From: Thraustochytrium sp. TN22
Taxonomy: Eukaryota; Sar; Bigyra; Thraustochytrida; Thraustochytriidae
Direction of reading: 5' to 3'
Length of the DNA: 64,000 bases
NCBI GenBank assembly: GCA_013306675.1
Contig: JABLUY010000152.1
Coordinates: 29,417 to 93,416, forward strand
Under the pieces are notes generated by a model that saw only the letters and a program-made list of their open reading frames with translations, had not been told where the DNA came from and searched no databases. Shown piece after piece: positions 17,075 through 43,167 of this stretch. Each line of letters starts with the position of its first letter. The stretch's first letter is position 1. Made by a program: the position numbers and the translations under genes.

Positions 17075-17091
17075 CTGAAGCGAGCGCGCGT

Positions 17092-22200: not shown

Positions 22201-22342
22201 CGGCATCCTCGCCTACGGCTACGGCGACTTTCACGCCTACCTGCTCGTCTCCCAAGGTGCCTCCATCCTCTGTGCCGCCTCCTCGTTCTCGATGCCCATC
22301 CCTGCCACCTCCGAGAACGACTGCTCCTTCTTGCCGCTGTAG
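19235..22342 (+). CDS. Secreted trypsin-like protease, four SRCR domains plus novel C-terminal domain, array copy 2 (1035 aa)
   Basis: The ATG at 19235 opens a clear signal peptide (MARRGTRAAAAALVAALALA). Activation after R32 yields VIGG. The triad is complete: H81, D139 and S293, with the trypsin-type specificity aspartate (DSCQGDSGGP). The autolysis-loop insertion is about 75 residues, Tyr/Asp- then Thr/Ser-rich. SRCR domains lie at about 375-495, 527-644, 669-772 and 778-883, joined by linkers such as PTPAPTPRPTSAAPTS. Residues 896-1035 form an additional domain I do not recognise, with FGVVLLPADTTFICSA, GFDPPNSGAIGDRLCSYE, DGILAYGYGDFHAYLLVS and a final CSFLPL. The same domain occurs in copy 4 and as a relic after copy 3. 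It is presumably secreted; substrate and partners are unknown. Confidence 0.92.
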   Translation: MARRGTRAAAAALVAALALAAATRGAAQVTTRVIGGAPTAQGELDWIVNLQVGALDGLSLVDDFLCGGSLIAPGWVLTAAHCAVFADVPGERGVESLAGLRVIMGQRDLAGALEDSREVRTVVDVWVHPDYDESTMQNDIALLKLNRDVHAASFPNILQARKFEKDGVVLKVSGWGYTTTNSDYYTTGSDHYRRLSDDDAEGAAADQEAQAPSSENTTTTSRMTEFQAARAEQRSERSSATNIGVLNSVETPFISYSRCVGSKSGYTSYDISRRTMICAGDLSGGVDSCQGDSGGPLYADGGSGEQFLVGIVSWGNGCALARWPGVYTRLSRYIGWIKGIVDQDLVQGAPPADLLTLPPTPAPTRRPRFDDTTVVSSETTKLVGANPGFLMFKPAGQTSFRYVRANPFFGDVEARVACRDLGFADGAFRWDLIASAPEVPSKYKVFDDLLRCTGAEASLRDCETRTVADYVAASASSATPAWATDTEQLPALIECLATDSPTRAPVPTPPVGVTLSSSGAYVATSQFMRLRRSPEEAAASSTGAEYGRVEVYHHGAWTTVCQSDSDSYVALDEAARTVACRSLGYTGVSYYKRYYRSVFSKDRVPACGIGILECTGFEDNLLECDHSALGSGDHSADIFLMCTNETARPTPAPTPRPTSAAPTSYSTRPVASGSKARLLYSNPGLLEVRNNNKWVGICKTGFGWTERQVACRNLGFAGSDRVDLAFLTTFTSSTSGPLENVVCQGDENQLTKCDFDVATTVTCSKVNLGCAEVEPEPVQVRLMQTTFVEETNTISGFVQVSLDGGATWGIPCDDYVDSPEAEVMCRSLGYEGGAVSTMSPPNFGLDILMDDISCDGTEEHLGQCQYTSRDNCYWTEALAIECTVPVTPSPTLASSGTFSEGQLATLPEASLVRFGSASSFGVVLLPADTTFICSAAVIGFDPPNSGAIGDRLCSYEILTAVSASASGGDPRDDLVVLAAQGETLTVPQDGILAYGYGDFHAYLLVSQGASILCAASSFSMPIPATSENDCSFLPL

Positions 22343-22389
22343 CCGCTGGTGGGGGCAGAGCAGGCCGGCAACATCGGCTGCACACAATC

Positions 22390-22610
22390 TTACAAACGCA
22401 GCCTCCGTAGTACGCTAGGCTTCTCCTGGCTCTATCGAACACAACTTCAATACAAACGCGGACGACTTCAAAGACAAACGTAGTTCTGAAGTACGCCAGG
22501 CTTCTCCTGGCTCTATCGATAGCAACTTCAAGACAACCGCAGCTCGGCTTCTCCTGCTTCAAGACAAACTTGATCAAGCAAGCCAGGCGCGCCTTGCTAG
22601 GCTTCTCCAA
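22390..22610. repeat. Degenerate tandem repeats of about 60 bp
   Basis: Recurring words AGGCTTCTCCTGGCTCTATCGA (22417, 22498) and CTTCAARACAAACG, then a truncated third unit with GGCTTCTCCTGCTTCAAGACAAAC. It lies just downstream of the stop codon of protease copy 2. Confidence 0.75.
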
Positions 22611-22784
22611 GTCTCGCCAACCAACTCGCTCGAGTTCCTTCACGTTGCCCCGCATCAAAATATGTCGCTGCTCGCCCCGCACGCGGGCCATCTCCACCGC
22701 CGAGGCCGGTCCGGCAGCTCTTGCCCGCAGGCGATCAAAGCTGCGTCCTGGCTTTCCCAGTCTCCCGCGGGCCAGCGGGGCGAG

Positions 22785-23165
22785 TACTGGCAGTCCTCCT
22801 CCGATCCCAGCATGGCGGCCCACGTGACGGCCACGACGCTAGCCAGAGTCAGGCTGCCGTCCCTCAGGCTGCGTACTGGGTCGAGCCTGAGACCGAGCCT
22901 GAGACCCAGACGAGACGAGACCGTGCCGAGACTTGGCCCACTGAGGGAAAAAGGAGCGAGCCACCAAGCAACGCAGGGCGCGTACTGGCAGTCCTCCTCC
23001 GAATCTCCGATTCCAGCATGGCGGCCCACGTGACGGCCACGACGCTAGCCAAAGCCAGGCTGCCGTCCCTGCGTACCGAGACGAGCTTGAGACCGAGACG
23101 AGACGAGACGAGACGAGACGAGACTTGGCCCACTGAGGGAAAAAGGAGCGAGCCACCCAGCAAGC
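22785..23165. repeat. Two direct copies of a block of about 190 bp
   Basis: Copies at 22785-22982 and 22983-23165 both start TACTGGCAGTCCTCCTCC and contain AGCATGGCGGCCCACGTGAC, GCCAGGCTGCCGTCCCT and CTTGGCCCACTGAGGGAAAA. The second has an expanded (GACGA)n pentamer run near 23096-23124. The palindromic CCCACGTGAC E-box-like core occurs once per copy. Confidence 0.9.
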
Positions 23166-23798
23166 CTTCAACGCGCCACTGATCTCACTGACTCAGTGAG
23201 AGCCGCCAGGCCGAGCTGACTGCGATCAACCACAACAGCCTGCCTCGACTCGACCTGGCAACTCGGGGCGGCTGGGCGGCCCGGACGAAGCCAGTCGGCC
23301 GGCTTCTCTGGCCGTCATCATCAGTCGCCGAGCGCGTGGCGCGGCGCGGCGCGGCGCCCGCCTCTGGCTCGCGCCCGGCGCCCGCGTTGGTCACGGCTCG
23401 AGCGGGGACGCCGAGAGGGCACGGTCCCCGCTCTGAGCACGAACACGAACACGCCGCGCGAGGGCGTATCGCGGCACTGCAGTGACAGGGCTTGCTCGAC
23501 TCGGAGACAATCTAAAGAAATGGAAAGCCGCGAGAGGCCAGCCAGGCTGACTGCGAGTCGCGGCGCGGACCCAGCGTCCTCGGCGGCCTCGGCGCGTGAC
23601 TCCCAGATCAGATTAGCCTGAGCTCGGAGGTACTCGTACTACTCGTACCAGTCCTCACGTCAACGCGGGCATTGACTCGAACTCATCAGCCGCCGGCAGC
23701 CAGCACGGGCCGGGCCTGCAGTGCAATGATCTCGGCCACGGCAGGGCGCACGTGCACGCAGACACGAATCGGAGGCTCGAGGCGAGCGCAGAGCGGAG

Positions 23799-26447: not shown

Positions 26448-26682
26448 CCAACGCCCCCGCCCACGCCCGACGCGCGCGATGACCTGCAGATCGTCGCCGC
26501 GCAGGGCGAGACCGTCTCCTACAATGGCATCACACTGGTCGCCTACGGCCAGGGCGCCTTGCAGACCTCCGCCTTCCACCTTCGTCTGCGAGGCGGCCTC
26601 CTTCCCCGGGCCCATCCCTGCCAGCACCGAGCACGTCTGCTCCATCCTTGACGGCGCTCGAATAGCTTCCTCTTCAAATTAG
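26448..26682 (+). pseudogene. Relic of the C-terminal domain of protease copy 3
   Basis: Immediately after the TAG the same frame reads PTPPPTPDARDDLQIVAAQG, matching the linker and the DPRDDLVVLAAQGET stretch of copy 2. A shift of frame then gives FVCEAASFPGPIPAS and VCSIL, matching the end of the domain (ILCAASSFSMPIPATS, CSFLPL). The first half of the domain, with the GFDPP and GDRLCS motifs, is deleted. This is a broken tail, not a gene. Confidence 0.85.
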
Positions 26683-27197
26683 ATTGTCAACATACACCGC
26701 ACGTGCAAAAACCGCTCGAGTTCTGCGCGGACCTGGACTCGGCAAAGGCCGCGCCCAGCGACCAAGCCGTGAGCCATCTCCGACTCGGCGCCGCGCCGTG
26801 TCGGAGTCGGCAGCACCCAAGTGGCTCCCCGCAAATCGTGCGAGTTCCACGCGGACCTGAACACGGACAAGGCCGCGGCCGTGCTCAGCGATCTCGAGGA
26901 GTTCGGGCAGGATGGCCTCCGCGCGCGCCGCGGCCGCTGCCCGCGACTCGGACGCGAGGGTAAAATCTAACAAAGACTTGGAGGCAAGCGGCGGCGGCGG
27001 CGACGACCGTGAGCCGAGCGGAGGACTCGGCGTCCGAGACGCGTTTCAGGAGAATGCGCGACAAGGACGGCGCGCGCCGCCGTCGAGGTCGTCGGGAGAA
27101 TGGATGCGCACTCGGCGCGAGAGACGGAGCGAGCGAACTCGCGAGCAAACATCGATCGATCGGAGCTGCGCGAGGCCAAGAAGAGGCGGTCGCGAGG
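26683..27197. other. Intergenic region upstream of protease copy 4
   Basis: No gene. A degenerate direct repeat of about 65 bp (about 26698-26762 and 26825-26893, sharing GCGCGGACCTG and AAGGCCGCG-type words) flanks a 29-base palindrome at 26778-26806. The last 200 bases before 27198 are the likely 5' UTR. Confidence 0.5.
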
Positions 27198-30100
27198 ATG
27201 CCGGGCCTGCACGTGGCGAGCTTGACGCTTCTTGCGGCGGCGGCACTGGCAGGGACGGCCGCTCCCGCCAGCGCCGCGACCATGCCGAGGGTGATCGGAG
27301 GGACGCTGGCGGAGGACGACGATGCGACGGATTGGATTGTGAACGTGCAGGCCGGCCAGCTGGCGGGGGCTAGCCTGATGGATGACTTTATCTGCGGCGG
27401 TAGCCTGATCGCGCCCGGCTGGGTACTGACGGCGGCGCACTGCGTCATGTACTTTCGAGTGCAAGGCGAGCAGGGCGTCGAGTCGACTGCCGGGCTGCGC
27501 GTCATCCTCGGCCAGCGCGACTTGGCCGGTGCCGTGGAGGCCGGTCGCGAGGTGCGCACGGTCGTGGATGCCTTCGTGCACCCCGGTTTCGATGGCAATG
27601 ACCTCTCGAACGATCTCGCTCTGCTCAAGCTGAACCGCGACGTGCATGGTGTGAGCTACCCGAATGTGCTCCAGGCCCGCAAGTTCGAGAAGGATGGCGT
27701 GATGCTCACAGTCTCAGGCTGGGGTTGGAGTACCGTGGACGACAACTACTACGGTTATTACTACTTCCCACTGGCACACGCCGCGGCCACCGACGGCACT
27801 CGACCCGGACGCTCTGCGCGACCCGAGAGCGCCACGAGCATGTCTGGTAGACCGAGAGCGGAGGCGCTGAACAAGCTTAGGGCAGACAAGAAGCGCCTCG
27901 CGGGGGACGGCGATGGCAATGGGTTCAACGTCGGCGAACTGCGGAGCGCGCACGTGCCCTACCTCTCCTACTCGCGCTGCATCGGCGACGAGTCTGGCTA
28001 CTGGCCCGATGAGATCGACCGCAGCTCCATGATCTGCGCGGGGAGCTTCGCGGGGAGCTACGACTCTTGCTACGGCGACAGCGGCGGCCCGCTCTACGCT
28101 GACGGGGGGGGCGGCCAACAGTATCTAGTGGGCATCGTGTCCTGGGGCTACGGCTGCGCAAACCCCACCTACCCCGGCGTCTACACGCGTCTCTCCCGCT
28201 ACGCTGGCTGGATCAAGCGGACGGTGGACCAGGACCTCGTGCGGGGCTCGCCGCCGGCCAACCTCTTCGCATTGCCTCCCACGCCCGCACCCACGCGCAA
28301 GCCCCGCTTCCGCGATCGCACTGTAGCGTCATCGAAGAGCACCAAGCTGGTGGGCGATAATCCGGGGTTCTTGATGTTCAAGCCAGCTGGCGAGCGCGCG
28401 TATCGCCACGTTGAAGCCAACATCTTCTTTGGCGAGCCCGAGGCTCGCGTCGCCTGTCGCGACCTCGGCTTTGCGGACGGCGTCTTCCGCTGGGACCTCA
28501 TCAGCAACGCGCCGCCCATTCCCTCCAAGTACAAGCCCTTCGGCGCCCTCTTCCGTTGCAAGGGCACCGAGGCCTCCCTCTTGGCCTGTGACACCCCCAG
28601 CAAAGAGGAGCTTCTGGACGCCACGCAGGGCTACGACTCCTCTTGGGTGGACTACGAGAGTCAACAAGAGCCGGCAATCGTCGAGTGCTTCGCGACGGCC
28701 TCGCCGTCGCGTGCGCCCGTGCCTACACCGCAGGCAGGCGTCACGATCTCCTCCTCCGGCAAGTTCATCGCCACGAGCCCTTTCATGCGTCTGCGGCGTC
28801 GCGTAGATGCCGCAGTGAGCGCAAGCGTGGGCGAGGCGGAGTACGGCCGCATCGAGGTGTACCACCATGGCACGTGGACCTCCGTGTGCCAGGGCCTCTC
28901 CTGGTCTGGGACGCTGGACCAGCCCACCAGGACCGTCGCTTGCCGGAGCCTGGGCTACACCGGTCTGGCCGATGCAAGGCGTCTCCCGGAGGCGACCTTC
29001 CGCAAGGACCGCGTGGCTGCCTGCGCCGTCGGGACCATCAAGTGCAGCGGCTTTGAGAACCACTTGCTCGAGTGCGAGCGCTTCCCTGTCAGCGCTGGCG
29101 ACCCGAATCACTCCGACGACGTCTTTCTGCGCTGCACGAATGAGACTGCGCGGCCAACCGCGCACCCCACGCGGCGGCCCACGCGGGCTCCGACCCCCCC
29201 GACGCATGCACCGACGGCCGCTCCTATAGTTGTGGTTGCGTCGAGCGACGAGTTGCGTCTCCTCACGGACAACCCTGGCTTGCTCGAGGTGATGCACGAC
29301 AATCAGTGGACAACAGTCTGTGCCAACAACTTCGACTCCAAGGAGCGGAGCGTGGCGTGCAAGAGCCTCGGCTTCAACGACACGGGCCGCCTGGACCGCG
29401 ACACCTTTGCGATCGACTGGTCGTACGCCCAGGCGATCGGGTCAGTTCATTGCGAGGGCAATGAGACCAGGCTCAGCGATTGCAGCTTCAGTTCGGTGTT
29501 CATGACATCCTGCACCAGGGTGCAGCTCAGCTGCGTTGAAGTGGCACCCCCGCCGATATTGACGCGCCTTGAGGAGTTTGAGGTGCATCACCACCAGGGG
29601 AAACAAGTCATCACTGGCTTCGTCCACGTCTCCCTCGACAATGGACGAACCTGGGGACTCCCATGCGACGACGGCACAAGCAGCCTCGAGGTAGCGGTCA
29701 TTTGTCGATCGCTCGGCTACCTGCCGGGCTGGCTCGACGACTTCTGGGGCTACTACGGCTGGTATGGCCCCTCGCCACCTGAATCCGACCTCGACTTTGT
29801 CATGAGTCACATCCGATGCAGAGGTAACGAGCCCGACCTCACCTCCTGCTCGTACGATGCCAATTTTGACTACTGCGATCGCTTCGACGCCATGCACATC
29901 ACGTGCGAGGTCCCGCCCACGCCACCTCCCACTCCCGGGACCACCTTTACGTGCGCGGAGGGCGAATTTTGCACTGCGCCCGAGGCTGGCATCGTGCGCT
30001 TCGGTTCCAACTCTAGCTACGGGGTTGTTCTCCTACCTGGTTCGACTTCCTTCGTTTGCTCTGCAGGCGTCGTCGGCTTCGATCCGCCCGGAAGCGGCGC

Positions 30101-30353
30101 GCTCGGTGACCGTCTGTGCTCCTTCGACCCGCTCAAGGGCGACGGTCAACTCGCGCTCCTTGGTGCCGAGGGCGAGGACCTAGACGTCCCCAGCGATGGC
30201 CTTCTCGCCTACGGCAGCGGCAACTTCCACGCTTACCTGCTCGTTTCCGCCGGCGACTCTATTCTTTGTGCGCAGTCCTCCTTTCCGTCGCTCATTCCGG
30301 CCAGCTCCGCCACAACTAGTAGGGTCCGAGTCTGCTCTTTTTTGCCACTCTGA
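27198..30353 (+). CDS. Secreted trypsin-like protease, four SRCR domains plus novel C-terminal domain, array copy 4 (1051 aa)
   Basis: The ATG at 27198 begins the signal peptide MPGLHVASLTLLAAAALAGT; upstream in-frame codons are Arg-rich and not signal-like. Activation follows R31 (VIGG). Triad H81, D139 and S295 is complete, and DSCYGDSGGP gives the trypsin specificity aspartate. The autolysis-loop insertion of about 70 residues starts with a Tyr-rich patch (NYYGYYYF) and continues Arg/Ala/Lys-rich. SRCR domains lie at about 380-498, 528-648, 683-781 and 788-905. Residues 915-1051 are the same unrecognised domain as in copy 2 (RFGSNSSYGVVLLPGS, GVVGFDPPGSGALGDRLCSF, GNFHAYLLVSAGDSILC, VCSFLPL), with four conserved cysteines. 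This makes it the longest member of the array. Confidence 0.92.
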   Translation: MPGLHVASLTLLAAAALAGTAAPASAATMPRVIGGTLAEDDDATDWIVNVQAGQLAGASLMDDFICGGSLIAPGWVLTAAHCVMYFRVQGEQGVESTAGLRVILGQRDLAGAVEAGREVRTVVDAFVHPGFDGNDLSNDLALLKLNRDVHGVSYPNVLQARKFEKDGVMLTVSGWGWSTVDDNYYGYYYFPLAHAAATDGTRPGRSARPESATSMSGRPRAEALNKLRADKKRLAGDGDGNGFNVGELRSAHVPYLSYSRCIGDESGYWPDEIDRSSMICAGSFAGSYDSCYGDSGGPLYADGGGGQQYLVGIVSWGYGCANPTYPGVYTRLSRYAGWIKRTVDQDLVRGSPPANLFALPPTPAPTRKPRFRDRTVASSKSTKLVGDNPGFLMFKPAGERAYRHVEANIFFGEPEARVACRDLGFADGVFRWDLISNAPPIPSKYKPFGALFRCKGTEASLLACDTPSKEELLDATQGYDSSWVDYESQQEPAIVECFATASPSRAPVPTPQAGVTISSSGKFIATSPFMRLRRRVDAAVSASVGEAEYGRIEVYHHGTWTSVCQGLSWSGTLDQPTRTVACRSLGYTGLADARRLPEATFRKDRVAACAVGTIKCSGFENHLLECERFPVSAGDPNHSDDVFLRCTNETARPTAHPTRRPTRAPTPPTHAPTAAPIVVVASSDELRLLTDNPGLLEVMHDNQWTTVCANNFDSKERSVACKSLGFNDTGRLDRDTFAIDWSYAQAIGSVHCEGNETRLSDCSFSSVFMTSCTRVQLSCVEVAPPPILTRLEEFEVHHHQGKQVITGFVHVSLDNGRTWGLPCDDGTSSLEVAVICRSLGYLPGWLDDFWGYYGWYGPSPPESDLDFVMSHIRCRGNEPDLTSCSYDANFDYCDRFDAMHITCEVPPTPPPTPGTTFTCAEGEFCTAPEAGIVRFGSNSSYGVVLLPGSTSFVCSAGVVGFDPPGSGALGDRLCSFDPLKGDGQLALLGAEGEDLDVPSDGLLAYGSGNFHAYLLVSAGDSILCAQSSFPSLIPASSATTSRVRVCSFLPL

Positions 30354-31155
30354 TGATGGATCCCAGGATCAGTCGTCATGATCAGAGACTTTCCCTGCCA
30401 CTGCGCCCGTGACAAAGAACGCCAGCACCAAAACCAAGCCACCAGCATTGCACATCACTGACCCGGCTGCAATGCGCCCGTGGCGGACCCTGCAGTCCGT
30501 CCGGCTGCGACCAAGCTCAGCACTGCAAGGAGTCTTTTCACCGTCAGCGCTTGCCACGCTAGCTTAGTTCTGCAGCTGCAGGGGCACGCTGCCGACGCCT
30601 TGCGCGCCGACACGCGGCGAGCTCGGACCCGCGTCACGTGGCACGGCTCCTGATCCCAGTCACGTTCCTGGACCAACCTACCTACGGTCCCGGTGGGCCG
30701 ACCGCCGAGTACCCCCGGCCTAATAAGAAACTCCTGTGGTCTCCCCACGTTCAAGTTGTGGTGCACTGCGATCAAGATCAAAACCACGCGCGACGCGCGC
30801 CTGCCTGTCGCCTTCGAGTTCGCCTTGGCGCGTGCGTGCAGGGCATCGCGAGGCGCCTTCGCGCACGCACGCGCGCGCACGCGAGCGAGCGAGCTCGTCA
30901 TGCTCGCTGCTCGCCTGCGATGAAGCAGGACTGGACGGGCCCGGCCGGATGGACGCGGCGCGCATAGGACGTACATGGGCACGTGCACGCACCAAGCCAC
31001 CAGGTCGCCCCGGCGCGATCAAGTCGCGGCAGCAGAACCGAAACCAAGGCGCAAACGGAGGAGGAGCGGAGGGAGCTGAAGAGCGGGGCGCGCGGTCGCC
31101 CGCCCCGCCCGCGCGCTGGGGCCGAGGCCGCGGCCGGGCAAGAGCTCGAGCGAGA
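30354..31155. other. Intergenic region upstream of protease copy 5
   Basis: No supported gene on either strand. Short (GC)-rich alternating runs (GCGCGCACGCGAGCGAGCGAG) lie near 30873-30893. Confidence 0.5.
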
Positions 31156-33741
31156 ATGAGAGCGGTCATGGTGGCAGCGGCGGCGGTGGTCGTGGGGCTG
31201 GACCTCGTGCTCGCGGTCGCCGGCGTGGAGACCGGGATGCCGAGGGTAATTGGAGGCGCGCCGACGGATGCGGGAGCGATTGACTGGGTCGTGAACGTGC
31301 AGGTGGGCGCGAGGGAGGGCTCGAGCCTGATGGACGACTTCATCTGTGGCGGAAGCCTGATCGCGCCGGGCTGGGTGCTGACGGCGGCGCGATGCGTGGT
31401 GGACTACCCGGTCCAAGGGGAACAGGCCGTGGAGTCGGCGACGAGGCTGCGCGTCGTCCTCGGCCAGCGCGACCTGGCCGGCGCTGTGGAAGATGGGCGC
31501 GAGGTCCGCACGGTCGTCGACGCCTACATCCATCCGGACTACAATGACCGCGAGTGGGAAGAGAACGACATCGCCCTGCTCAAGCTGAACCGCGACGTGC
31601 ATGGCGTGAGCTATCCCAACGTCCTGGAGGCGCGCAAGTTTGAGAAAAATGGCCTTGTGCTCACCGTGGCGGGCTGGGGCTTCAGCTCTGTGGACGCTTA
31701 CGAGGAGTACGAGGACTTCTTCCCCGACAGCATCAAGAAACCGGCAACCACCGGCGCCAAAACCGCGCCTACTAGCGCAGTGATGGGGCTGGGCGTGCTC
31801 CAAAGCGCAGACGTACCGTTCATCTCGTACTCGCGCTGCGTGGGCGATGACTTCGACTACAACCCACGGGCGGTTGATCGCAAGTCGATGATCTGCGCGG
31901 GCTCCCCCACGGGCAGCCCCGACTCATGCCTGGGCGACAGCGGGGGACCTTTGTACGCTGACGGAGGCCCCGGCCAGCAGTACCTGGTCGGCATCGTGGC
32001 CTGGAAGTTCCGCTGTGCGCAACCCGACTACCCGGGCGTGTATACACGCGTGTCCGCATTTACCAAGTGGATCAAGGCCGTCGTTGACCAGGATCTCGTG
32101 AACGGTTCTCCGCCCGCCAGCCTCCTGGCCTTGCCGCCCACCCCGGCACCCACACGCAAGCCCCGCTTCCGCGACCGCGCTGTAGCCTCGTCTGAGAGCA
32201 CCAAGCTTGTGGACGCCAACCCAGGCTTTCTCATGTTCAAGCCCGCGGGCGAGCGGTCCTTCCGCTACGTGGAGGCAAATCGGTTCTTCGGCGAGGCGGA
32301 GGCACGAGTGGCCTGCCGCGACCTGGGCTTCGGCGACGGTGCCTTTCGCTGGGACCTTGTCAGCGTCGCGGCCCGGGTTCCGTCCAAGTACAAGGCCTTC
32401 ACGGACCGCCTGCGCTGCAAGGGTAGCGAGGCGTCTTTGCGCGACTGCGAGACGAGCACCGTCGAGGACCTCATCGATGCCAACGAGTACTACGCGCCCG
32501 GAAGCGAGCAGGATCCGGCCATCGTCGAGTGCTTCGAGACCGCCTCGCCCACGCGCGCACCAGTGCCGACGCCGCCGGCCGGCGTGACGATCTCGGCCTC
32601 GGGTGCCTTCATCGCCACGAGCCAGTTCGTGCGGCTCCGACGTTACAAGGAAGGGGAATTTGGCGCGAGCGCAGGCGCCGACTACGGCCGCCTCGAGGTG
32701 TACTACCACGGCGAGTGGACGACGGTGTGCCAGAGCAGGGAGTGGAGGCCATTCGACGCGCCAACGCTCGCGGTCGCGTGCCGGAGCATGGGCTACTCCG
32801 GGCTCGCCGACGCGCGGCGATTTCCTGAGGCCAGCTTTCGCAAGGACCGCGTACCAGCCTGCGGCATCGGGACCATCAAGTGCAACGGCCTGGAAGACAA
32901 CTTGCTCCAATGCCAGCACTATCTTGGGGGTTCAGGCGCCTGGTCTGGGGACGTCTTTTTGGCCTGTTCCAACGAGACCGCGACGCCAACGCGCTCCCCG
33001 ACGTACGCACCGACGCCTGTGCCCACGGACGAGATTATCGTCGCCTCGAGCAACAGGCTTCGCCTCCGCGATAGCAACCCAGGCTTGCTCGAGTTCCGCT
33101 ACGCGAGAAACAAGTGGGGCACCATGTGCTCTGCCGTTTTCCTCTGGGAGGAGCGCGAGGTGGCATGCCGCACGCTCGGCTTTGCTGGCACGGACCGCCT
33201 CGACCAGTCCACGTTCCCGACCCTGCTGCTTGGTGATCCGCCCGTCACAATCGAATGCGAAGGCGACGAAGCCAAGGTTGACGACTGTCGTTTTTGGCGG
33301 CTTCCCGAGACCACATTCTGCTACAGAACCTACCTCGGCTGCGTCCAGGAGGCCCTACCGCCCGTCCAAGCGCGCCTTGCGGACTCGGAGACGCACACCG
33401 GCTTGGAGAATCAGTACGTCACGGGCTTCGTTCAGATTTCACTCGACGGGGGATCTACATGGGGCATTCCATGCGACGACGGCGTCGACGTCAGCGAGGC
33501 GCGCGTCATTTGCCGCTCGCTCGGACTTGAGGGCGGCTCCATCATCAGCCCAGGCTTCGGGGGCTATTACGGTGGAGCACCTTCAGCTCCCGACTATGGC
33601 ATTCCCGTTCTCATGGACAACATCCGCTGCAGCGGCGATGAGTCGGACCTCGGCAAGTGCTGGTACATCTCAGACCACGACTGCAGCTACTACGAGGCCA
33701 TCTCCATCTCCTGCGACATCCCGTCCGCTCCATCGCCATAA
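31156..33741 (+). CDS. Trypsin-like pseudoprotease with four SRCR domains, array copy 5 (861 aa)
   Basis: It has the same layout as the other copies: signal peptide from 31156 (MRAVMVAAAAVVVGLDLVLA), activation site after R30 (VIGG), an S1A domain and four SRCR domains at about 347-462, 490-605, 634-730 and 737-856. The catalytic histidine is replaced: the TAAHC motif reads TAARC (R79, codon CGA at 31390-31392). D138 (NDIALL) and S262 (DSCLGDSGGP) remain. Without the histidine the charge relay cannot work, so this is a serine protease homologue, a kind that in animals acts as a cofactor or decoy in proteolytic cascades; that role is inferred here. The autolysis-loop insertion is the shortest of copies 2-5. 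It lacks the extra C-terminal domain and ends PSAPSP, with no relic seen downstream. The open frame is otherwise perfect over 861 codons, which argues against a simple pseudogene. Confidence 0.9.
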   Translation: MRAVMVAAAAVVVGLDLVLAVAGVETGMPRVIGGAPTDAGAIDWVVNVQVGAREGSSLMDDFICGGSLIAPGWVLTAARCVVDYPVQGEQAVESATRLRVVLGQRDLAGAVEDGREVRTVVDAYIHPDYNDREWEENDIALLKLNRDVHGVSYPNVLEARKFEKNGLVLTVAGWGFSSVDAYEEYEDFFPDSIKKPATTGAKTAPTSAVMGLGVLQSADVPFISYSRCVGDDFDYNPRAVDRKSMICAGSPTGSPDSCLGDSGGPLYADGGPGQQYLVGIVAWKFRCAQPDYPGVYTRVSAFTKWIKAVVDQDLVNGSPPASLLALPPTPAPTRKPRFRDRAVASSESTKLVDANPGFLMFKPAGERSFRYVEANRFFGEAEARVACRDLGFGDGAFRWDLVSVAARVPSKYKAFTDRLRCKGSEASLRDCETSTVEDLIDANEYYAPGSEQDPAIVECFETASPTRAPVPTPPAGVTISASGAFIATSQFVRLRRYKEGEFGASAGADYGRLEVYYHGEWTTVCQSREWRPFDAPTLAVACRSMGYSGLADARRFPEASFRKDRVPACGIGTIKCNGLEDNLLQCQHYLGGSGAWSGDVFLACSNETATPTRSPTYAPTPVPTDEIIVASSNRLRLRDSNPGLLEFRYARNKWGTMCSAVFLWEEREVACRTLGFAGTDRLDQSTFPTLLLGDPPVTIECEGDEAKVDDCRFWRLPETTFCYRTYLGCVQEALPPVQARLADSETHTGLENQYVTGFVQISLDGGSTWGIPCDDGVDVSEARVICRSLGLEGGSIISPGFGGYYGGAPSAPDYGIPVLMDNIRCSGDESDLGKCWYISDHDCSYYEAISISCDIPSAPSP

Positions 33742-34043: not shown

Positions 34044-37000
34044 ATGCAGGCGCTCGCAGCCGTGATGGAGCTCTTCTCATCGCGCAAAGGCCGCGTCAAG
34101 GCCAATGACGAGGGGACAGTGCCCGTGAAGGTGTTCCTGTCGTACAAGCCGGGCAAGGACGCGCAGGGCCGCGACAATCAAGCGCGCGTGGAGCGCATCG
34201 CGAGCTGGCTCGAGGACAACCACGAGGAGTGGCGCATCAGCCCGCGCGTCAGCCCAGTCCTGGACGAGCGCGAAGGCCACGGCCATGGCTACGTGACGGC
34301 GTGCACGCAGATCGAGGAGTGCAACGTCATTCTTGTGTGCTTGACGACGGACTACTACGAGGCAGCGAACGCGAACATGAGGCAGGATTTCTCCCATCTT
34401 GAGTTTCGCCACGCCGCGAAAGAAAAGCCCCGCCGGCTGCTGGGAGTGGCCATGGAACGCTCGTTGCTTCGCCATCCTTGGAACGGCAGCATCAGCATGG
34501 CCTTGCGACAGGACGTCTGCTATGATCTCTCTTCGGACGAGGCTTTTGAGACCTCCATGCGCAAGCTCGCCAATGCGATCCTGCGCGCTCACCCAACAGG
34601 CGGGCAGCCCATGGTCGAGCCTCCCTTTTGCCTCGGAGGATACGACGCCGCGCTAAAAGGCCGCGCCAAGGCGCTCGAGCACGAGGAGCAAACGCACGTT
34701 TGGGTCCTCCGAGAGGTGAAGGACTGGGCCAAGGCGCGCTTGTGGAAAGACGAAAAGCGCATCCTGGCCGTGCTGGGGCCCGCCGGCTCGGGCAAGTCCG
34801 TCATGATCGCCAAGCTGTGCGCTGAGTCCGGCCTGCTTGGATTTGCGTCGCTCGCGCGACCCAGGCAGTCTGTCCTGGGTCGTGCCTCGCAGCGGCTGTC
34901 TGGCTCGCTGCCCTGGGTCGTTGGCGCCATGCACTTCTTCCGCCACGATGACGAGCGCGCCAGGGACGTGGTCATGTGCCTCAAGAGCATCGCGAACCAG
35001 CTCGCGGCCGCGGTCCCCGCACTCCGCGAGCATCTGACACCAGACCTGGTGCAGGCGACCCTCAGGCTGGAGGACCCCCTCACGATCTTTCACCGACTCA
35101 TCGCCGACCCGTGCTCCAATCTGGCGAGCAGGCCTGACTTCCACGTGGTGGTGGCACTGGACGCAGTGGACGAGGCCGAGGAGGTGCAGCGTGGTACGCT
35201 ATCCACCATCATTGAAAGCGAGTGGATCCGTAGCACGCCTGACTGGCTCGGCTTGCTCGTCACGTCCCGGCCCGAGGGCAAACTCCTCGGACGCCCGCGC
35301 TCCTCGATCGACCTGCTCGTGCTGCGGCTCGACGACCGGCGCAATATGGTCGATGTTCGGATTTTTCTTCGCACCAGACTCAGCAAGTTCATGGCCAGCG
35401 AGCACGAGCTGGACCTTGCGCTGGAAAACCTCCTCCAGCGCTCGCAAGGTCTCTTCCTTTACACGACGCTTCTCTGCGCCAAGCTCAAGGAAGGTCACTT
35501 GAAAAGTCTCCTGGCCGAGGACCTCGAGAACATGCTCCCAGACGGCCTCGACGGAATGTACGCGGAGTACTTTGGCCGCCTGCAAAGTGGTCCGCTCAAG
35601 GACAATGGCAAGTACAGAGACCTTTTCAGCGCCATGTGCGCAACCCGCAACGCGCTGCCCCTTGCGCTTGCCGCGAGGGTGCTCGAGATCAGCAAGCGCA
35701 AGACCGAGGACCTGCTTGGCAGCACCATGCAGCTCTTCGACGTTGACGCCTCCACCGTGCGCTTTCGTCACAAGTCTGTGCCAGACTTTCTCACGGACGA
35801 GGCGCGCTCTGACGGCACGCTCGTGGCGAGCCGCGAAGATGGCCACGTCACCTTGGCTCAAGTCCTTCTCCTGGAGGAGAGGAACGAGGAGGAGAAGCAG
35901 GAGGAAGTGAGAGAGGGCGAGGAAGAGGACCAAAAGGACGATACCTCCTCCGTCTTCGCGCTCAAGCACGTCATCTATCACCTCGCGAAGAGCAGTCGCA
36001 TGGATGAGGCGACTCACAGGCTCAACAGCTTCGACTGGATCCACGCCTTTGTCTCCGCCAAGCAAGTACCGGCCGAGCGCGAAGCATTTATCGGCGCCCT
36101 TGTGCGCACGGTCGAGCGCCTCACGCTGCAAGCAGTCAGCGATACGCCCCAGCTCCTCGTCAGGGCCACGACTGCCCTGATGCGGGATCCAAACGAGCTT
36201 GCCAGCCAGATCGTGGCCCGGATCGACGACGAGTCTCATCCGCTCCGGAAGAGCCTCTCCGTGCCGTCCATGCCCTGGCTTAGGCCTATGAAGCGCCAGC
36301 TCGCTCCGCCCCGCGATCCTCTTTTGCACGTTCTTGAGGGCCAGATGGACATGGTGTGGGCCGTGGCAATGTCCGACGACAACGTCGTGGCTGGATCTGC
36401 TGACGCGGCCGTGCGCGTGTGGGCTGCGGCCAGCGGCGAGCTGCTGCATGTGTTGGAGGGTCACGCTGGCTCGGTGGACGCCGTTGCGGTGACCGGCAAC
36501 TGGATCGTGTCTGGATCGTACGACAGCACCATACGCGTGTGGGACGCGACCAGAGGCGAACTGCTGCGTGTCCTGCAGGGCCACCAGCGTGGCATCAAGT
36601 CTGTTGCGATAGCTGGCGGCCGGATTGTGTCTGGATCCGCGGACGCAACTGTGTGCATGTGGGACGCGACCACCGGTGAGCTGCTGCGTGTGCTGGAGGG
36701 CCACACGAGCTGGGTCATGGCCGTGGCGGTGACTGGCGACTGGATCGTGTCTGGATCAAGGGATGCGACTGTCGGCGTGTGGGACGCGAGCAGCGGCGAC
36801 CTCCTGCGGGTGTTGAAGGGCCATGGAGACTGCGTCGCAGCCGTGGCACTGGCCGGCGACCGCGTTGTGTCTGGTTCCTGGGACCGAAGCTTGCGCATTT
36901 GGGACGCGGCCAGCGGCGAGCCGGTGCGTGTGATACGAGGCCACACGGAGGTGTGGGCCGTGGCGCTGGCCGGCGACCGGATCGTGTCTGGGTCAGTGGA

Positions 37001-37853
37001 TGGGAACGTGCGCGTGTGGAATGCAGCGAGCGACGATACGCCACGTGTCTTGGAGGGCCACCTGAGTCCGGTCACTGCCGTGGCCATGGTCGGCGACCAA
37101 ATCGTGTCTGGGTCGCTCGACAGGACCGTGCGTCCGTGGGGCACGGGGAGCGACGAGCCGCTGCGTGCGCGAAACGGCCACGCGGACCGGGTCACGGTCA
37201 TGGCGATCGTCGGCGATCAGGTCCTGACTGGATCCAGGGACACCACTGTGCGTGTGTGGGACGCGACCAGCGGGGACGTCCTGCTTGTGTTGGAGGGCCA
37301 CAAGTTTCCGGTCACTGCTGTGGCGACAGACGGCGACCGCATCGCCTCTGGGTCCGAAGACATGCCCGTGCACGTGTGGGACGCGACCAGCGGCGAACTC
37401 TTGCATGTGCTGAAGGGTCATACGGGATGGATCAGGACTGTGGCGATGGCTAGCGGTCGGCTCGTGTCTGGGTCTGACGACAGGACCGTGCGCGTGTGGG
37501 ACGCGACCAGCGGCGAGGCGCTGTGCGTCTTGGAGGGCCACACGGTCGGGGTCACGGCGGTGACGATCGCCGACGGGCTGATTATCAGTCAGAGCTGGGG
37601 CGCCACTCTCTGCCACGACCTGCTGACGTTTGAGCGTGTGGTGGGCTCAAATGCTGCTGCCCGTGTCCTAGATGCTGACGGCGGCTATGAGCGCCGCGTA
37701 AGGGTCGTGCAAGGCGTCCACATCGTCTCAGTTGTCGACCATCACGTGGGCTTTACGATGGATTCGCGGATCGTGTTATTGATTCAAAGAGACGACACGA
37801 TCGCCGTGGCCGACGAGACCCACCAAATCCACATCCTAAAAATCCAGCCATGA
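34044..37853 (+). CDS. TIR-NACHT-WD40 STAND receptor-like protein (1269 aa)
   Basis: Residues about 28-178 form a TIR-like domain: first strand VKVFLSYK, central LVCLTTDYY, and a helix with HLEFRHAAK whose Glu (E120) aligns with the NADase glutamate of catalytic TIR domains. Next is a NACHT-type NTPase with P-loop GPAGSGKS (K251), Walker B VVALDAVDE (D373, D376, E377) and LLVTSRPEG. A helical region and an acidic Glu-rich linker lead to WD40 repeats from about residue 760 to 1185. There are ten full units of 40 codons (one of 39) plus a degenerate eleventh, close to identical to one another (VSGS-D-TVRVWDATSGELLRVLEGH). A C-terminal tail may close the propeller. The layout matches animal/bacterial TIR-NACHT and fungal HET-E-type NLR-like proteins: repeats sense, NACHT oligomerises, TIR signals, possibly by consuming NAD. 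I chose the ATG at 34044 because upstream codons to 33855 are Arg/Ala-rich. No membrane segment. Confidence 0.88.
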   Translation: MQALAAVMELFSSRKGRVKANDEGTVPVKVFLSYKPGKDAQGRDNQARVERIASWLEDNHEEWRISPRVSPVLDEREGHGHGYVTACTQIEECNVILVCLTTDYYEAANANMRQDFSHLEFRHAAKEKPRRLLGVAMERSLLRHPWNGSISMALRQDVCYDLSSDEAFETSMRKLANAILRAHPTGGQPMVEPPFCLGGYDAALKGRAKALEHEEQTHVWVLREVKDWAKARLWKDEKRILAVLGPAGSGKSVMIAKLCAESGLLGFASLARPRQSVLGRASQRLSGSLPWVVGAMHFFRHDDERARDVVMCLKSIANQLAAAVPALREHLTPDLVQATLRLEDPLTIFHRLIADPCSNLASRPDFHVVVALDAVDEAEEVQRGTLSTIIESEWIRSTPDWLGLLVTSRPEGKLLGRPRSSIDLLVLRLDDRRNMVDVRIFLRTRLSKFMASEHELDLALENLLQRSQGLFLYTTLLCAKLKEGHLKSLLAEDLENMLPDGLDGMYAEYFGRLQSGPLKDNGKYRDLFSAMCATRNALPLALAARVLEISKRKTEDLLGSTMQLFDVDASTVRFRHKSVPDFLTDEARSDGTLVASREDGHVTLAQVLLLEERNEEEKQEEVREGEEEDQKDDTSSVFALKHVIYHLAKSSRMDEATHRLNSFDWIHAFVSAKQVPAEREAFIGALVRTVERLTLQAVSDTPQLLVRATTALMRDPNELASQIVARIDDESHPLRKSLSVPSMPWLRPMKRQLAPPRDPLLHVLEGQMDMVWAVAMSDDNVVAGSADAAVRVWAAASGELLHVLEGHAGSVDAVAVTGNWIVSGSYDSTIRVWDATRGELLRVLQGHQRGIKSVAIAGGRIVSGSADATVCMWDATTGELLRVLEGHTSWVMAVAVTGDWIVSGSRDATVGVWDASSGDLLRVLKGHGDCVAAVALAGDRVVSGSWDRSLRIWDAASGEPVRVIRGHTEVWAVALAGDRIVSGSVDGNVRVWNAASDDTPRVLEGHLSPVTAVAMVGDQIVSGSLDRTVRPWGTGSDEPLRARNGHADRVTVMAIVGDQVLTGSRDTTVRVWDATSGDVLLVLEGHKFPVTAVATDGDRIASGSEDMPVHVWDATSGELLHVLKGHTGWIRTVAMASGRLVSGSDDRTVRVWDATSGEALCVLEGHTVGVTAVTIADGLIISQSWGATLCHDLLTFERVVGSNAAARVLDADGGYERRVRVVQGVHIVSVVDHHVGFTMDSRIVLLIQRDDTIAVADETHQIHILKIQP
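36320..37600 (+). repeat. High-identity WD40 minisatellite, 120-bp period, about 11 units
   Basis: The coding sequence repeats every 120 bp, with the word GTGTGGGACGCGACCAGCGG recurring almost unchanged. One unit (around 36900-37017) is 117 bp. Such nucleotide-level identity among WD40 units points to recent unit shuffling or gene conversion. Confidence 0.95.
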
Positions 37854-38379
37854 ATCCCAGCACCATCCTCCTCAATCTGAAGCGACCCAATCATCCCCAA
37901 GATTAGAGCCTGTTTCGCCCAGAGTTGCGCAGGTTCGACTGCTGCGCGAAGAGAACCACCTTTGCCGCCGCCTTGCAGTGGGTCACGTCATTCGTCGCCT
38001 TGTAGACCACGCACAGGGTGCCGCGCACGCATGCAGAGATGCCCTCCAAAGTCTGGCCGCGAAGTCCGGCCCGGACGCCCGGGCCGCGTCCATGGCCGGC
38101 AGGCTGCTGGGCGCGGCGGCCAGGCCGTCGTTGTGCTAGCTAGTTAGTACCTTGCCACCAGCGTGTCGTCGTGCTTGCGCTGCTTCGCGAGAGAGCCTAA
38201 CGACGGTGCCGGCAGAGCCTTCTCTGGTCAGCTGCGCGGCGCGGCTGCGCGGCTGCGCGGCGGGCGGCAGCGGCAGCGGCGGGCGGGCGCCCCCCGCGCA
38301 CGGGCTCGCCAAGCCCGCGGCGAGCGCGGCGAGCGGCGGCGGCGGCGGCGGTAGCGGCACGCGGGCGGCGGCATCATCC
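37854..38379. other. Intergenic region upstream of the USP48-like gene
   Basis: No separate gene. The frame of the next gene is open from about 38152, but only from a TTG codon. It is likely promoter and 5' UTR, ending in GGC/GCG triplet runs. Confidence 0.5.
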
Positions 38380-38418
38380 ATGCTGGGGCCAAATTCCGCC
38401 GCCCCGGCCGCCGGCGCG

Positions 38419-38449
<31 letters not shown>

Positions 38450-41400
38450 CGGCGCAGGGCGGGAGGCTCGCGCCCGCGCCCGCCGCCGAGCCCGCGGCGG
38501 CGCTCGCGTCGCCTACGGCGCGCAAGGCCGGTCCCGGGGAGGGGGCTGTCGGGCTCGCTCGGCGACGACCAGCTGCAGACGCACAAGGGCCGCGCTCTCA
38601 TGCAGCCGCCAGCGACGGGAGCCAGGGCCAGGGCGCAGAGCCCATGGAGGTCAACCAGGACGCTGCCGAGCAGCCAGACGTCGTCGTGTCGCTGGAGGAG
38701 GAGGAGGAGGAGGGGGACGCTGCCGAGCCCAGCACGAAGAGCAAGAGGAAGGCCTCCGGCAGCGAGGACGAGGTGGAAGGCGGAACCGCAACGCCCGCCA
38801 AGTCACGGCGCAGGAGCTCGTCGGGGATCCGCAAAAGCGCGGAGGACGGCGAGAGCGAGAGGGCGCCCTCTCCAGAGGCGGCGGGCAGGCCGCGGCGAAG
38901 CGCGAGGGCGAAGCGCGAACCGGAGGGGTTTGACCCAACGCCGAAGTGCTGGAGGACCAAGAACAAGCGCGAGGCCGCCGAGGCGGATGCAGTCAAGCGA
39001 CGGAGGCGGCAGAGCAGTAAATCCGCTTCCGCTTCCGCTTCTGCGCCCAGACGCCGCCGCGGAAGGTTGGCAAAGAGCGCCGGCAACATCGAGTCCGTGG
39101 AAGATGAGGACGCGGGCAATAAGGCGGAGAACTCGGAGGGCCCCGCGGAGGGCGCCCACGAGTCGGCAGCGCAGTCTGTGGAGGAGAGCAGCAGCGCAAG
39201 TGAGAGCGGGTCGCAGCAGGGGCGCGGCGGCACACTCGAGGAGGTGCAGACGCTGAGCCAGGTTGCGCAGGGGCTCAAGGAGGACCCGCTGATGCGCACC
39301 AAGGTGGCCTGCCGGCCGAGCGACCACAAGGGCGGGAGGCGAAAGAACTGTACCAACAATCCAAATTGCCTCTACGGTCTTGGCGTCGATACGGGCATCT
39401 ACACAAAGCGCTTCAACGCGGCGGCGGACCTTGGCACGGACCCGCGCACGAGCCTGCGCGACACCAAGGCTGGGCGGAGCCCCGTGGGGCTCATCAACCT
39501 GGGCGCCACGTGCTACGTGAACGCGCTCATCCAGACGCTCTTTATGACACCGCGCGTCAGGCACCTCGTATACCTTTGGACGCCCATGGGCCGCGACCCG
39601 GCGCACGAGGCGCCCCTGGACGAGCTGCAGCTCATCTTCGCGCTCATGCAGGAGGGCAACGCCAAGAAGCAGGACCTTCGCAAGCTGTGCACGCTGCTGG
39701 AGCTCGACTCGAGCTACCAGCAGGACGCACAGGAATTTCACAAGTTGCTGCTTAATCTGGTCAGCAATGTGACGGCCAATCACGAGGTGCGCGAGGTGCG
39801 CACGCTGAGCTCCATGTTTTGTGGCAAGGTGCTCAACGTTGTGCGCTGCCTCAATTGCAAAAGGTCCTCGCAGAGGCCAGAGGAGATTTTGGAGCTGCAG
39901 CTCAACATCAAGGGCCATGCGACGCTGCGCGCCGCGCTCGAGGCCTACGCGGCCGTCGAGAAGCTAGAGGGCCACGACCAGTACGCCTGCGACAGCTGCA
40001 AGTCGAAGCAGGATGCCGAGCGCTCGGTGCGCATCGCCGTCTTGCCAGAGGTGCTCATCGTGCTGCTCAACCGTTTCGTATGGAACCTTGAGCTCGGCGT
40101 GAAGAAGAAGGTCAAGGACAGCATCGAGATTCCCGAGACGTTGGACTTTGCCGGCGACCCGGTTCTTGCGACGATGCTGGCTGAGTCGCTGGCCAAGTCC
40201 GAGGACGGTGCTTACACTCTTACCGCGGTGCTTGCGCACAAGGGCGCCGGCGCGGATGCCGGCCACTACACGGCGGACGTCCTGGACGTCACGCGCACGC
40301 CGGCTTGCTGGTACACCATGGACGACGAGCGCGTCTCTCCCATCCAGAAGCGGCCCACCTCGAGCCGCAACGCCTACATGCTCGTCTACCGGCGCACCTC
40401 GTCGCTGCGCAACAACGCCGAGGACCTTGGTGCGCTCCCGGCCCGCGTGCGCGCTCGCCTGGATGCTGAGAACGACCGCCTCAATGCCGAGATTGCGGAC
40501 TACGACGACCGCCGCGTTAAGCTGCAAGGCGCAGCGGAGGAGCGCCGCAAGCTCTTTAGTTCACTCTTCATCAACCAGAAGCAAGGCCCGCCCTACGCCG
40601 GGCCGGACACCCCGGCGGTCTGGGTGCCCACCAATTGGCTGGCCGGCTGGATTTCGGGGCGCAAGCCTGCCGCGGCGGACGAGACCACCGCAGGCGGGGC
40701 TCGTAGGCCCAAGTCCAAGTTCAAGTCAAGGTCGTCCTCGGCGCCAGCCGTCGTGGACCTGGACGCGCCGCAGGAGCCCATCGACCTTTCGCAAGAGGCA
40801 GACCCCGGAGCGATCGACGAAAAGGACGAGGGCATTGATGACGACAATGACGATCGTGACGACAATGACAAAGAGGACAGTGCGGCGGACGACGATGCAA
40901 ACGACGACGACGACAACGGGGAAAAGGGTGGTGCAGAGGGCACCATGTCGAAGAAGAAATCAAAGAAGAAGAAGAAGAGGAAGAAGAAGAAGAAGAGGGA
41001 GGCGGAGGAGGAGGAGGAGGAGAAGGAGGAGGATATCAAGACCAAGACCAAGGTCAAGAGGCGCGCCGCGGGGAACGGCACCAAGGCGCAGAACGGCGAG
41101 AATGGCATGGACTCGGCCGACGTTGGCGGCGGCGCCATTGAGGTGGTCTTCTCGGAGCCGCCGGACGTGCGCCCATACCTGTGCCCGCACAGCCGGCGCA
41201 CGCGGCAGTCCGAGGCGGAGGTCAACCAGCAGGCTGGCGCGCTGGTGTGCGTCGGGCCGGCCGCAGCCGCGCGCATGAAACGCGTGAGTCGGCCGGTCTG
41301 GGAGGCCATAGCCGACGCGTGCGCGCTGTCGGCCAAGGAGCGCTTCGCGCTGCCTTACGTGCTAGACGAGGCGGCGCACCCAAATCTGGCGTGCAGCGAG

Positions 41401-43167
41401 TGCTGCAACAAGCTACGCTCCAAAGTGCAGTCGATCCAGGAGTCGGAGGATGCGCGGAACCGCATCGACGATATGCTGCGCAAGGACCGTGTTTCGTCGG
41501 CGCGAATGCAGGCGGGCCGCAAAGAATACTACTACATTGCAAACAAGTGGGCGGCGGACTGGCTCAGGTTCAACAAGCTCAAGCAGGAGCATGCCGAGGC
41601 CGTGGTCAAGGCTCTCGCACAGGACCGCGACGGCAAAGCGAGCCGTCGCGGCGACCGGTCCAACCGCAAGCGCGTCACGGCGCCCGAGGTGTTGGACGTG
41701 CTCTCGGGCGGCGTTGGCCGCGTGGGTATCGGCTCTGACGCCTCGGGTGGCGGCGAGGGCGGCGCGGGCGGTGGCGCGGGCGCGGACGCCAACGAGGAGC
41801 CCACGGACGACATCAACGAGTCCATCCTGTGCAAGCACGGCAAGCTTACGATGGGCCACAAGGACAAGCAGCTCATCACGGACGAGGCGTGGAAGTTCAT
41901 TGTGGACAACGCATTGGGCGGGCGCTGCAAGGAGAACACCACGGCGCTGAGCGGCGAAACCCCCCCCTGCAGCCAGTGTGAGTCAGAAGTCCTGGCAACC
42001 AAGGACAAGGCGGAGGAGCGCGCGCGCAGCAAGGCGCTCCAGCTCAAGTCCGAATCGCACGGGAAGACGCTGTCGTCGCTCGCCAAGCGCACGCTGAGCG
42101 GGAGACCCAGCCTCTCGCAAGGCGTCCTGCCGCGGGGCACTTACTACGTGTTGCCGCGCGGCTGGCTCGTGCGGTGGCGGAATTTCGTGCGCAACAAGGC
42201 CGTCGAGGTGATGCCGCCACCGCAGCTCGCGGAAGCTCTCGAGGCGCCCTCACTCCGCTGCAAGCACGGCGAGCGTCTCGTGCACGCGCGCCTGGTACGC
42301 TGGCTCCGCCGGGACGACACGCACGAGGCCGCGAGTTTGCTCACGCCCGAGGAGCGCGAGAACCCTAGCGAGTGCAGCCCCCTCTGCGAGCTCCTCAGCG
42401 AGACCGAGTGGAACGCGCTCACCGCATTTTATGGCGACGCGCCCTCGCCCATCCGGGTCCATCTGCTTGATGACCTCGATCCGACGAAGCCATTCGTGGC
42501 GGCTACCTCCGTCGACGAGCGTCTCGCATTTGACCCGCCGCTCTGCGACGAGTGCATGCGCGAGCGGCTCGAGCGCGCGGCTCGGGATGCCGTTGACTTC
42601 GTGCAGAGCCCGATTCGCGTCTGCCTCCTGCCACCGGGCGCCGCGCTGCCCTCGGACTGGCTCGACGCTGCGCCCAACGGCAGCACCACCGCTGGCGACG
42701 CGGAGGGCGCCCGCGAGGCTCACAACTCGGGCGCGTCCGATCCGGCCGCCGACGCTGCCTCCTCTGCGCAGGCTCCGGTGCGCCGCTCGCGCCGTAAGAA
42801 CGAGTCCGCCAAGAGCGCCATCCTGCGCCTCTCCAGCTCCATGTCCCTGCGCAAGCTCTTGGTTCAGGCTTACTACGAGGACAAGCTGCACGGCATGCTC
42901 AGTCAGGTCGCCCCCAGCAGCGTGCGCATCTACCACAAGGGCAAGCAGCTCTCCGATATTGACATGACGCTCGAGCAGGCCGGCGTGCGCCGCGACGATG
43001 AGGTGCTGCTCCAGCTAGACCCGGACGACCTCCCCGAAGATGCCGACCTGGCCAAGCCCGAGGAGCTCTGGTTCGGCCTGCTCCAGGACGCCACCGACAT
43101 TGGCTCCGCCGAGCTGCGCGCCCCGGAGCGCGGCTTCGCCGGCTCGCTCCTCTCTCGGACCAACTGA
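38380..43167 (+). CDS. USP48/UBP26-like ubiquitin C-terminal hydrolase (1595 aa)
   Basis: A cysteine protease that removes ubiquitin; plant and animal relatives (UBP26, USP48) act on histone H2B/H2A in the nucleus. The USP domain spans about residues 365-680, with the Cys box NLGATCYVNALIQTL (C378), QQDAQEF, a zinc-finger pair (CLNC, CDSC), and the His box GADAGHYTADV (H629) followed by YTMDDERV. Three DUSP-like segments follow, near 740 (WVPTNWLAGW), 1047 (YYYIANKWAADWL) and 1255 (YYVLPRGWLVRWR). A ubiquitin-like fold lies at about 1483-1545 (LRKLLVQAYYEDKL through DDEVLLQLD). This order is diagnostic of the USP48 group. The N-terminal 330 residues are Ala-, Ser- and Arg-rich and disordered; an Asp/Glu block and a Lys-rich block near 860-890 look like nuclear localisation signals. 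38380 is the first ATG in the frame. Confidence 0.93.

Follow-up and report, generated by a model that had tools for sequence, protein, structure and literature searches.

A diverged TIR-NACHT-WD40 gene of a thraustochytrid and its paralogs with near-identical WD40 units that vary at four positions

The closest described counterparts of the gene considered here are the fungal HNWD genes (het-d, het-e and het-r of Podospora anserina), in which an effector domain and a NACHT domain are followed by WD40 units of 42–43 residues (PMC4986451) that are reported to be >80% to 100% identical within a gene (PMC12222747). In Podospora, strong positive selection was described at codons 7, 9, 25 and 27 of the unit, which flank the conserved codons 8 and 26 and belong to the d-a loop and the b-c turn (PMC1805685). 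Highly repetitive beta-propellers are known chiefly in bacterial and fungal proteins, and 84% of the eukaryotic cases in one survey fell in the Ascomycota and Basidiomycota (PMC9218822). Here we describe a TIR-NACHT-WD40 gene located at 34044–37853 (+) of a 64,000-nucleotide window of the genome of Thraustochytrium sp. TN22, a unicellular marine protist (GenBank assembly GCA_013306675.1; positions 29,417–93,416 of contig JABLUY010000152.1, designated C58, in an assembly of 37.9 Mb and 453 contigs). A first-pass annotation made from the letters alone had read this gene as a receptor of the HNWD kind with near-identical WD40 units. It had found a real receptor gene and chosen the right analogy; the property that it attributed to the gene belongs to the paralogs. 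The gene itself is probably an old and slowly changing receptor of a TIR-NACHT-WD40 family in which some other members diversify in the manner of the fungal NOD-like receptors (NLRs). No report on the NLRs of thraustochytrids was found among the papers listed in searches of the open-licence literature (PMC), outside which most of the subscription papers lie.

The family of presumed intracellular immune receptors is large. A genome search with the whole window protein gave at least 91 matching stretches and a search with its TIR-NACHT part at least 68; 26 paralogous loci were read, all from this single genome assembly, and further matching loci (e.g., C87, C133 and C364) are not among them. The paralog frames were taken from stop to stop, so these genes may not all be intact. 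A TIR related to that of the window gene is present in 22 of the 26 loci, and a separate TIR_2 match is present in C242. In five of the paralogs the mean nucleotide identity of the units reaches 0.92 (C428), 0.91 (C243), 0.87 (C283), 0.83 (C61) and 0.82 (C422), compared with 0.63 obtained for the window gene by the same method; 8–10 units per array are joined in each of the five by single linkage at ≥90% nucleotide identity, and the mean amino-acid identities are 0.75–0.88 over all units and 0.81–0.97 over the indel-free ones. Diverged arrays are found in other members too, such as C445 and C54. The HNWD-like diversification that had been assigned to the window gene is not seen in its diverged array but is well supported in the five paralogs. 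The pairs C428/C61 and C442/C409 were considered as possible alleles; since the similarity is lost in their upstream flanks (up to about 1.6 kb examined), they look like paralogs. The members C397a and C397b, rejected as alleles as well, are located on a single contig at a distance of 9 kb.

Near-identical arrays might also be created by the collapse or expansion of repeats during assembly. Illumina-based assemblies are stated to be unable to reconstruct such arrays (PMC12222747), C428 runs off the contig end inside its array, and runs of N are found in C409 (a long one) and in C277, with seven N in C61. The five separate arrays, however, stay in frame over 8–10 near-identical units, with differences specific to individual units at the four codons described below, and an assembly error may have affected the number of units but much less so their sequence. 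We therefore hold an artefactual origin of these arrays to be highly improbable.

In the five homogeneous arrays the mean non-synonymous difference is greatest, among the 40 columns of the unit, at columns 21, 19, 37 and 35. This ranking was done before the comparison with the fungal codon positions; for each of the eight genes with the most uniform arrays, one or two poorly matching units had been dropped, and some indel-misaligned units stayed in and inflate the framework figures. The same columns 19, 21, 35 and 37 rank first in within-gene diversity over 17 genes, and their four-residue combinations number 131 in 160 units compared with an average of 44.5 for four framework columns. Columns 19 and 21 flank the conserved Val20, and columns 35 and 37 flank the conserved Asp36. 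The two-residue offset between the thraustochytrid and the fungal columns corresponds to the difference in unit length (40 versus 42–43), and columns 19, 21, 35 and 37 may be mapped residue by residue onto the fungal codons. The variable set proposed earlier for the window gene (17, 18, 19 and 35) includes two of the family columns, 19 and 35, but misses 21 and 37, and its column 17 is unremarkable. This set, chosen from the window gene, also scores high, being equalled or bettered in the five homogeneous arrays by only 345 of the 91,390 four-column sets. The individual residues that the first-pass annotation gave for the positions behind GH and between GS and D are all present in the sequence.

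In an AlphaFold2 model of the WD40 region of the window gene (10 sequences; mean predicted local distance difference test score (pLDDT) 79, predicted template modelling score (pTM) 0.57), the units form a regular series of beta-strands with pLDDT mostly >90 through unit 6 and 52–76 at the start of unit 8. Propeller modelling had been suggested in the first-pass annotation as a way to see where the variable sites lie: in model units 2 and 3, as read from the strand list and not from the coordinates, columns 17–19 fall in the d-a loop, column 21 at the start of strand a and columns 35 and 37 in the b-c turn, but the confidence is low from model residue 431 on.

The changes at these positions are mostly non-synonymous between near-identical units. 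Among 23 near-identical within-gene unit pairs (≤10 nucleotide differences; 7 genes, the window gene contributing none) the four columns account for 56.6 non-synonymous (N) and 4.4 synonymous (S) differences, and the framework for 18 and 15, respectively (Fisher p 1.6e-5). The N share at the four columns is above the neutral expectation (p 0.0025, and 0.032, 0.0037 and 0.0030 at the other three cut-offs), the counts being fractional and rounded for the tests and the pairs (edges) not being fully independent. When the framework supplies the synonymous rate, amino-acid changes at the four columns run at 3.6 times that rate in a set of 58 distinct units from eight genes, 7.4 times in C428+C61 and 7.0 times in C422+C243+C283; the pooled four-column beta/alpha ratio in the latter two sets is 3.8 (p 0.021) and 4.0 (p 0.18). 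The mutation spectrum of the four codons includes mixed bases, with transversions and transitions in the ratio of 45:16 (18:29 in the framework), and no obvious targeting was seen in it, targeted mutagenesis being still compatible with these data.

The arrays also bear traces of turnover. For 60.0 of the 184 clean units that were left after the removal of units with an insertion or deletion (C277 and C149 yielded none), the nearest unit is found within the same gene, while shuffled labels give a mean of 8.2 and a maximum of 15.4; 47.8 of the 60.0 belong to C243, C283, C428, C61, C422 and the window gene. An identical 120-base unit is common to C422 and C398, the NACHT regions of which are 81% identical, and units of C422 and C451 are alike at 96.7% with the NACHT regions at 75%; such a discrepancy suggests that units moved between loci. 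The genes C428 and C61 have NACHT regions that are 97% identical and arrays that are built differently, and in C397a and C397b (NACHT 96%) the arrays are still collinear. Both end motifs were found in eight of 27 genes, in which the length of the repeat region corresponds to 12.9–19.1 units. Within the C61 array a block of several units seems to have been duplicated, a nine-residue insertion being shared by the copies.

The putative effector is common to most of the family. The residue aligned to Glu120 of the window gene (codon 34401–34403), at which the first-pass annotation had correctly read a glutamate, is Glu in all 23 family TIR domains compared and lies in the conserved motif [LKRE]EF. 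A TIR_2 match was obtained with every one of the 14 members scanned, and many paralogs exceed the Pfam cut-off, C398 and C428 matching more strongly than the window gene; nine of the 14 also match DUF4062 (best E 5.5e-4) and seven the TIR-like bacterial family FxsC. Over the genome (38 Mb) there are 126 TIR_2 matches at E ≤0.01, 114 of them over the cut-off, and the window TIR is not among them. All nine TIR_2 loci sampled from this set match TIR_2, and some of these TIRs appear to reside on ROCO-like proteins, since COR domains of ROCO proteins are matched too in three of the nine loci, in one case above the cut-off. At C160:1247-4627 four TIR matches follow each other at an exact spacing of 1043 bp with one TGA inside each, which resembles a recent tandem array.

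The DUF4062 matches bring in the possibility that these are TEP1/NWD1-like DUF4062-NACHT-WD40 proteins with a structural or vault-related role in place of a receptor repertoire. According to a preprint (PMC13174449), DUF4062 is a TIR-like NAD-cleaving enzyme (NADase) domain found next to NACHT in TEP1, NWD1, NWD2 and NPHP3, with only TEP1 active on NAD+, and several of the human proteins NWD1, NWD2 and TEP1 also have WD40 repeats. The window gene, however, has no DUF4062 match in the Pfam scan; no TROVE or vWA match was obtained with its N-terminal 769 residues, scanned as residues 1–200 and 201–769, or, among the 25 of 52 families listed, with the whole protein; and more than 20 genes, five of them with rebuilt arrays, are unlike a single-copy scaffold protein. 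A role of this kind appears very unlikely to us.

Several observations weigh against the interpretation of the gene as a member of a diversifying receptor family. The window gene lacks near-identical units, and its variable columns are unremarkable in comparison with other WD40 proteins. Tandem Repeats Finder places the array at 36385–37562 with a period of 120, 9.8 copies and 67% matches. The eleven 40-codon units at 120-bp spacing noticed before are there in number and period, although unit 6 has 39 codons, the other ten having 40, and unit 1 is degenerate. Their near-identity did not survive measurement: among the nine full 40-codon units the mean identity is 65.3% for nucleotides (range 56.7–74.2%) and 50.8% for amino acids (range 27.5–65.0%), little above the 58–62% mean unit nucleotide identity of ordinary WD40 genes of the same genome (gapped alignment, 4–5 units each; four of seven fetched genes were usable, the other three having too few units). 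The ratio of diversity in the four family-wide variable columns to that in the framework is 2.3 in the window gene. The controls usable for this ratio gave 1.5–2.5 for seven of 12 WD40 proteins from the database search (three of Streptomyces by name, the others without a name or named only as WD40 or kinase proteins) and 1.5 for one of seven in-genome genes. With diverged units and a column ratio within the control range, HNWD-like evolution cannot be sustained from the window gene alone. The nearest relative is within the same array for seven of eight of its units, though diverged, and the array is old and bears no trace of recent turnover. Some paralogs appear to be damaged or incomplete, with a stop within the array in C77, a frame change in C277 and a start inside the NACHT region in C149. 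The TIR_2 match of the window gene (E 3.8e-5, 24.6 bits) falls below the Pfam cut-off of 28, and in a search of solved structures with the family profile, SEFIR and plant TIR structures come up at no better than E 0.08–0.1. Of the NADase-type TIR claimed earlier, the glutamate is conserved in the family, but the evidence for the fold is modest. Finally, fixed effects likelihood (FEL) with site-specific synonymous rates detected no positively selected site at p<0.05 in the set of 58 distinct units from eight genes, and the pooled four-column beta/alpha in that set is 0.86 (p 0.59).

The codon-wise dN/dS comparison proposed with the first-pass annotation has thus given a divided answer. Diversifying selection at the four columns of the paralogs is likely, not proven, because the N excess in the near-identical pairs is accompanied by the null result of FEL when the synonymous rate is left free. 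Under neutral repeat amplification with relaxed constraint the four columns would be nothing but unconstrained surface loops with no special role in recognition. The absence of a positive site in the site-wise test would agree with it, these columns also belong to the most variable ones of other WD40 proteins, and blade amplification is described as general in beta-propellers (PMC9218822). It predicts, however, an N/S close to the neutral share, which the near-identical pairs exceed at all four cut-offs (p 0.0025–0.032), and it leaves the roughly sevenfold excess of the four-column amino-acid rate over the framework synonymous rate in the two low-divergence sets without an explanation. We consider relaxed constraint unlikely, though it deserves to be taken seriously.

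The architecture of the window gene agrees with that of a receptor. It consists of one open frame with 1269 codons and a stop (34044–37853, +), the start of which is uncertain, an in-frame ATG at 33888 and a GTG at 33855 being found upstream with no stop between. All three parts recognised in the first-pass annotation are in place. A TIR-like effector domain occupies residues about 28–175 (34125–34568), TIR_2 being the sole Pfam match in the N-terminal 200 residues, with no HET domain. It is followed by a NACHT domain of the NPHP3_N type at 34698–35270 (PF24883, E 3.8e-17) with the P-loop GPAGSGKS at 34776–34799 and an acidic Walker B stretch at 35145–35177, and by the WD40 array, units 1–11, at 36297–37613 (E 1.3e-65, 10 stretches). 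The C-terminal tail (37614–37850) ends with a HILK-type motif; its pLDDT is <50 in the model, no Pfam match was obtained over 37500–37850, and several paralogs end much like it.

By analogy with APAF-1, TEP1 and HET-E, the top face of the WD40 propeller or propellers would bind a ligand or a modified host protein, the NACHT domain would then oligomerise, and the TIR domains clustered in this way could cleave NAD+ and so give a signal or kill the cell; an immune role of the family would be in line with such a scheme. In part of the family the arrays would be rebuilt by repeat amplification, homogenisation and unit movement between loci, and four top-face residues per unit may be diversified meanwhile, as in the fungal HNWD scheme. 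The domain order and the four variable positions, both as in HET-E and HET-D, might even point to an allorecognition receptor proper, in which the WD40 face would read, once cells have fused, the allelic forms of a protein of the same species. Neither cell fusion nor an allelic partner is shown for this organism, however, and the vast majority of such fungal gene families are stated not to be involved in allorecognition (PMC12881547). Viruses of thraustochytrids are known (PMC4512727, PMC8354545), and pathogen sensing is therefore at least as likely; we find allorecognition quite unlikely. A wider proposal, which we make tentatively and would not yet back against the field, is that a unicellular stramenopile keeps an anticipatory receptor repertoire of TIR-NACHT-WD40 genes, in which blade units are exchanged and amplified between loci and the same four residues are varied as in the fungal allorecognition genes, this solution having been reached independently in each of the two kingdoms. 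If a thraustochytrid family does diversify the same four positions, this mode of making receptors would not be a fungal peculiarity. Thraustochytrids grow in culture, and the generality of four-position diversification could then be tested in culturable organisms with known viruses.

The assignment of the DNA to a protist, made at first from the letters, holds: the large RNA polymerase subunit identifies a thraustochytrid, with 82% identity to its counterpart in Mucochytrium quahogii and 95% to an MMETSP/EukProt transcript, and three large RNA polymerase subunit genes are matched in the genome, as expected for a eukaryote. Directly upstream of the TIR-NACHT-WD40 gene, at 14207–33738 (+), there are five tandem genes, each with a trypsin domain and several SRCR domains; this cluster holds 15 of the 16 SRCR matches in the genome (E ≤1e-6), and a tandem repeat of about 100 bp (2.6 copies, 91%) follows its first gene at 17148–17395. 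Downstream lies a large ubiquitin-specific protease gene (38152–43167, +; UCH, E 5.1e-45).

A protein search outside the genome gave 41 matches driven by WD40, the named ones mainly from Streptomyces, and a second one, with the N-terminal part, gave five. No protein match came from the transcriptome sources that hold the 95% identical polymerase subunit, an absence that is weak evidence because only the 8000 candidates sharing most words were scored. PADLOC gave only a repeat-driven match. A scan of bacterial and archaeal genomes found 127 relatives, and the 80 of them that were kept were mostly cyanobacterial. The best match of the N-terminal part, the database protein P0016 (28% identity over 65%), has TIR_2, NPHP3_N and WD40 in the same order and differs from the homogeneous thraustochytrid paralogs in its diverged WD40 units. 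In the cyanobacterial WRAP-type proteins of the class of signal transduction ATPases with numerous domains (STAND), near-identical WD40 blades are likewise placed on a STAND protein, but the gene is described as coupled to a separate TIR-STAND gene (PMC9218822). The domain order also agrees with that of the animal STAND proteins TEP1, NWD1 and NWD2, in which a DUF4062 or TIR-like domain is followed by NACHT and WD40. TEP1 has NADase activity and a catalytic Glu, and a conserved Glu is common to the thraustochytrid family TIRs; the family described here differs in its large size, no TROVE or vWA was seen in the scans, and DUF4062 is weak and absent from the window gene.

The fungal HNWD genes remain the closest parallel. 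The effector-NACHT-WD40 order and the organisation as a multigene family are the same, as are the near-identical units in part of the thraustochytrid family, the apparent movement of units between paralogs and the four hypervariable positions, which flank a conserved Val and a conserved Asp. By the fungal within-gene identity the window gene falls short (51% for amino acids, 65% for nucleotides), while five paralogs have mean nucleotide identities of 0.82–0.92; the concerted evolution and unit exchange of the fungal genes are found in a subset of the paralogs, and many members, the window gene included, have diverged units. The effector is a HET domain (TIR-related) in the fungi and TIR_2 here, the units are of 42–43 residues there and of 40 here, ten members are present in Podospora compared with the 26 paralogous loci read in this genome, and one host is a fungus, the other a stramenopile. 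The TIR-NACHT-WD40 family of this thraustochytrid is a variation of an already known receptor scheme.

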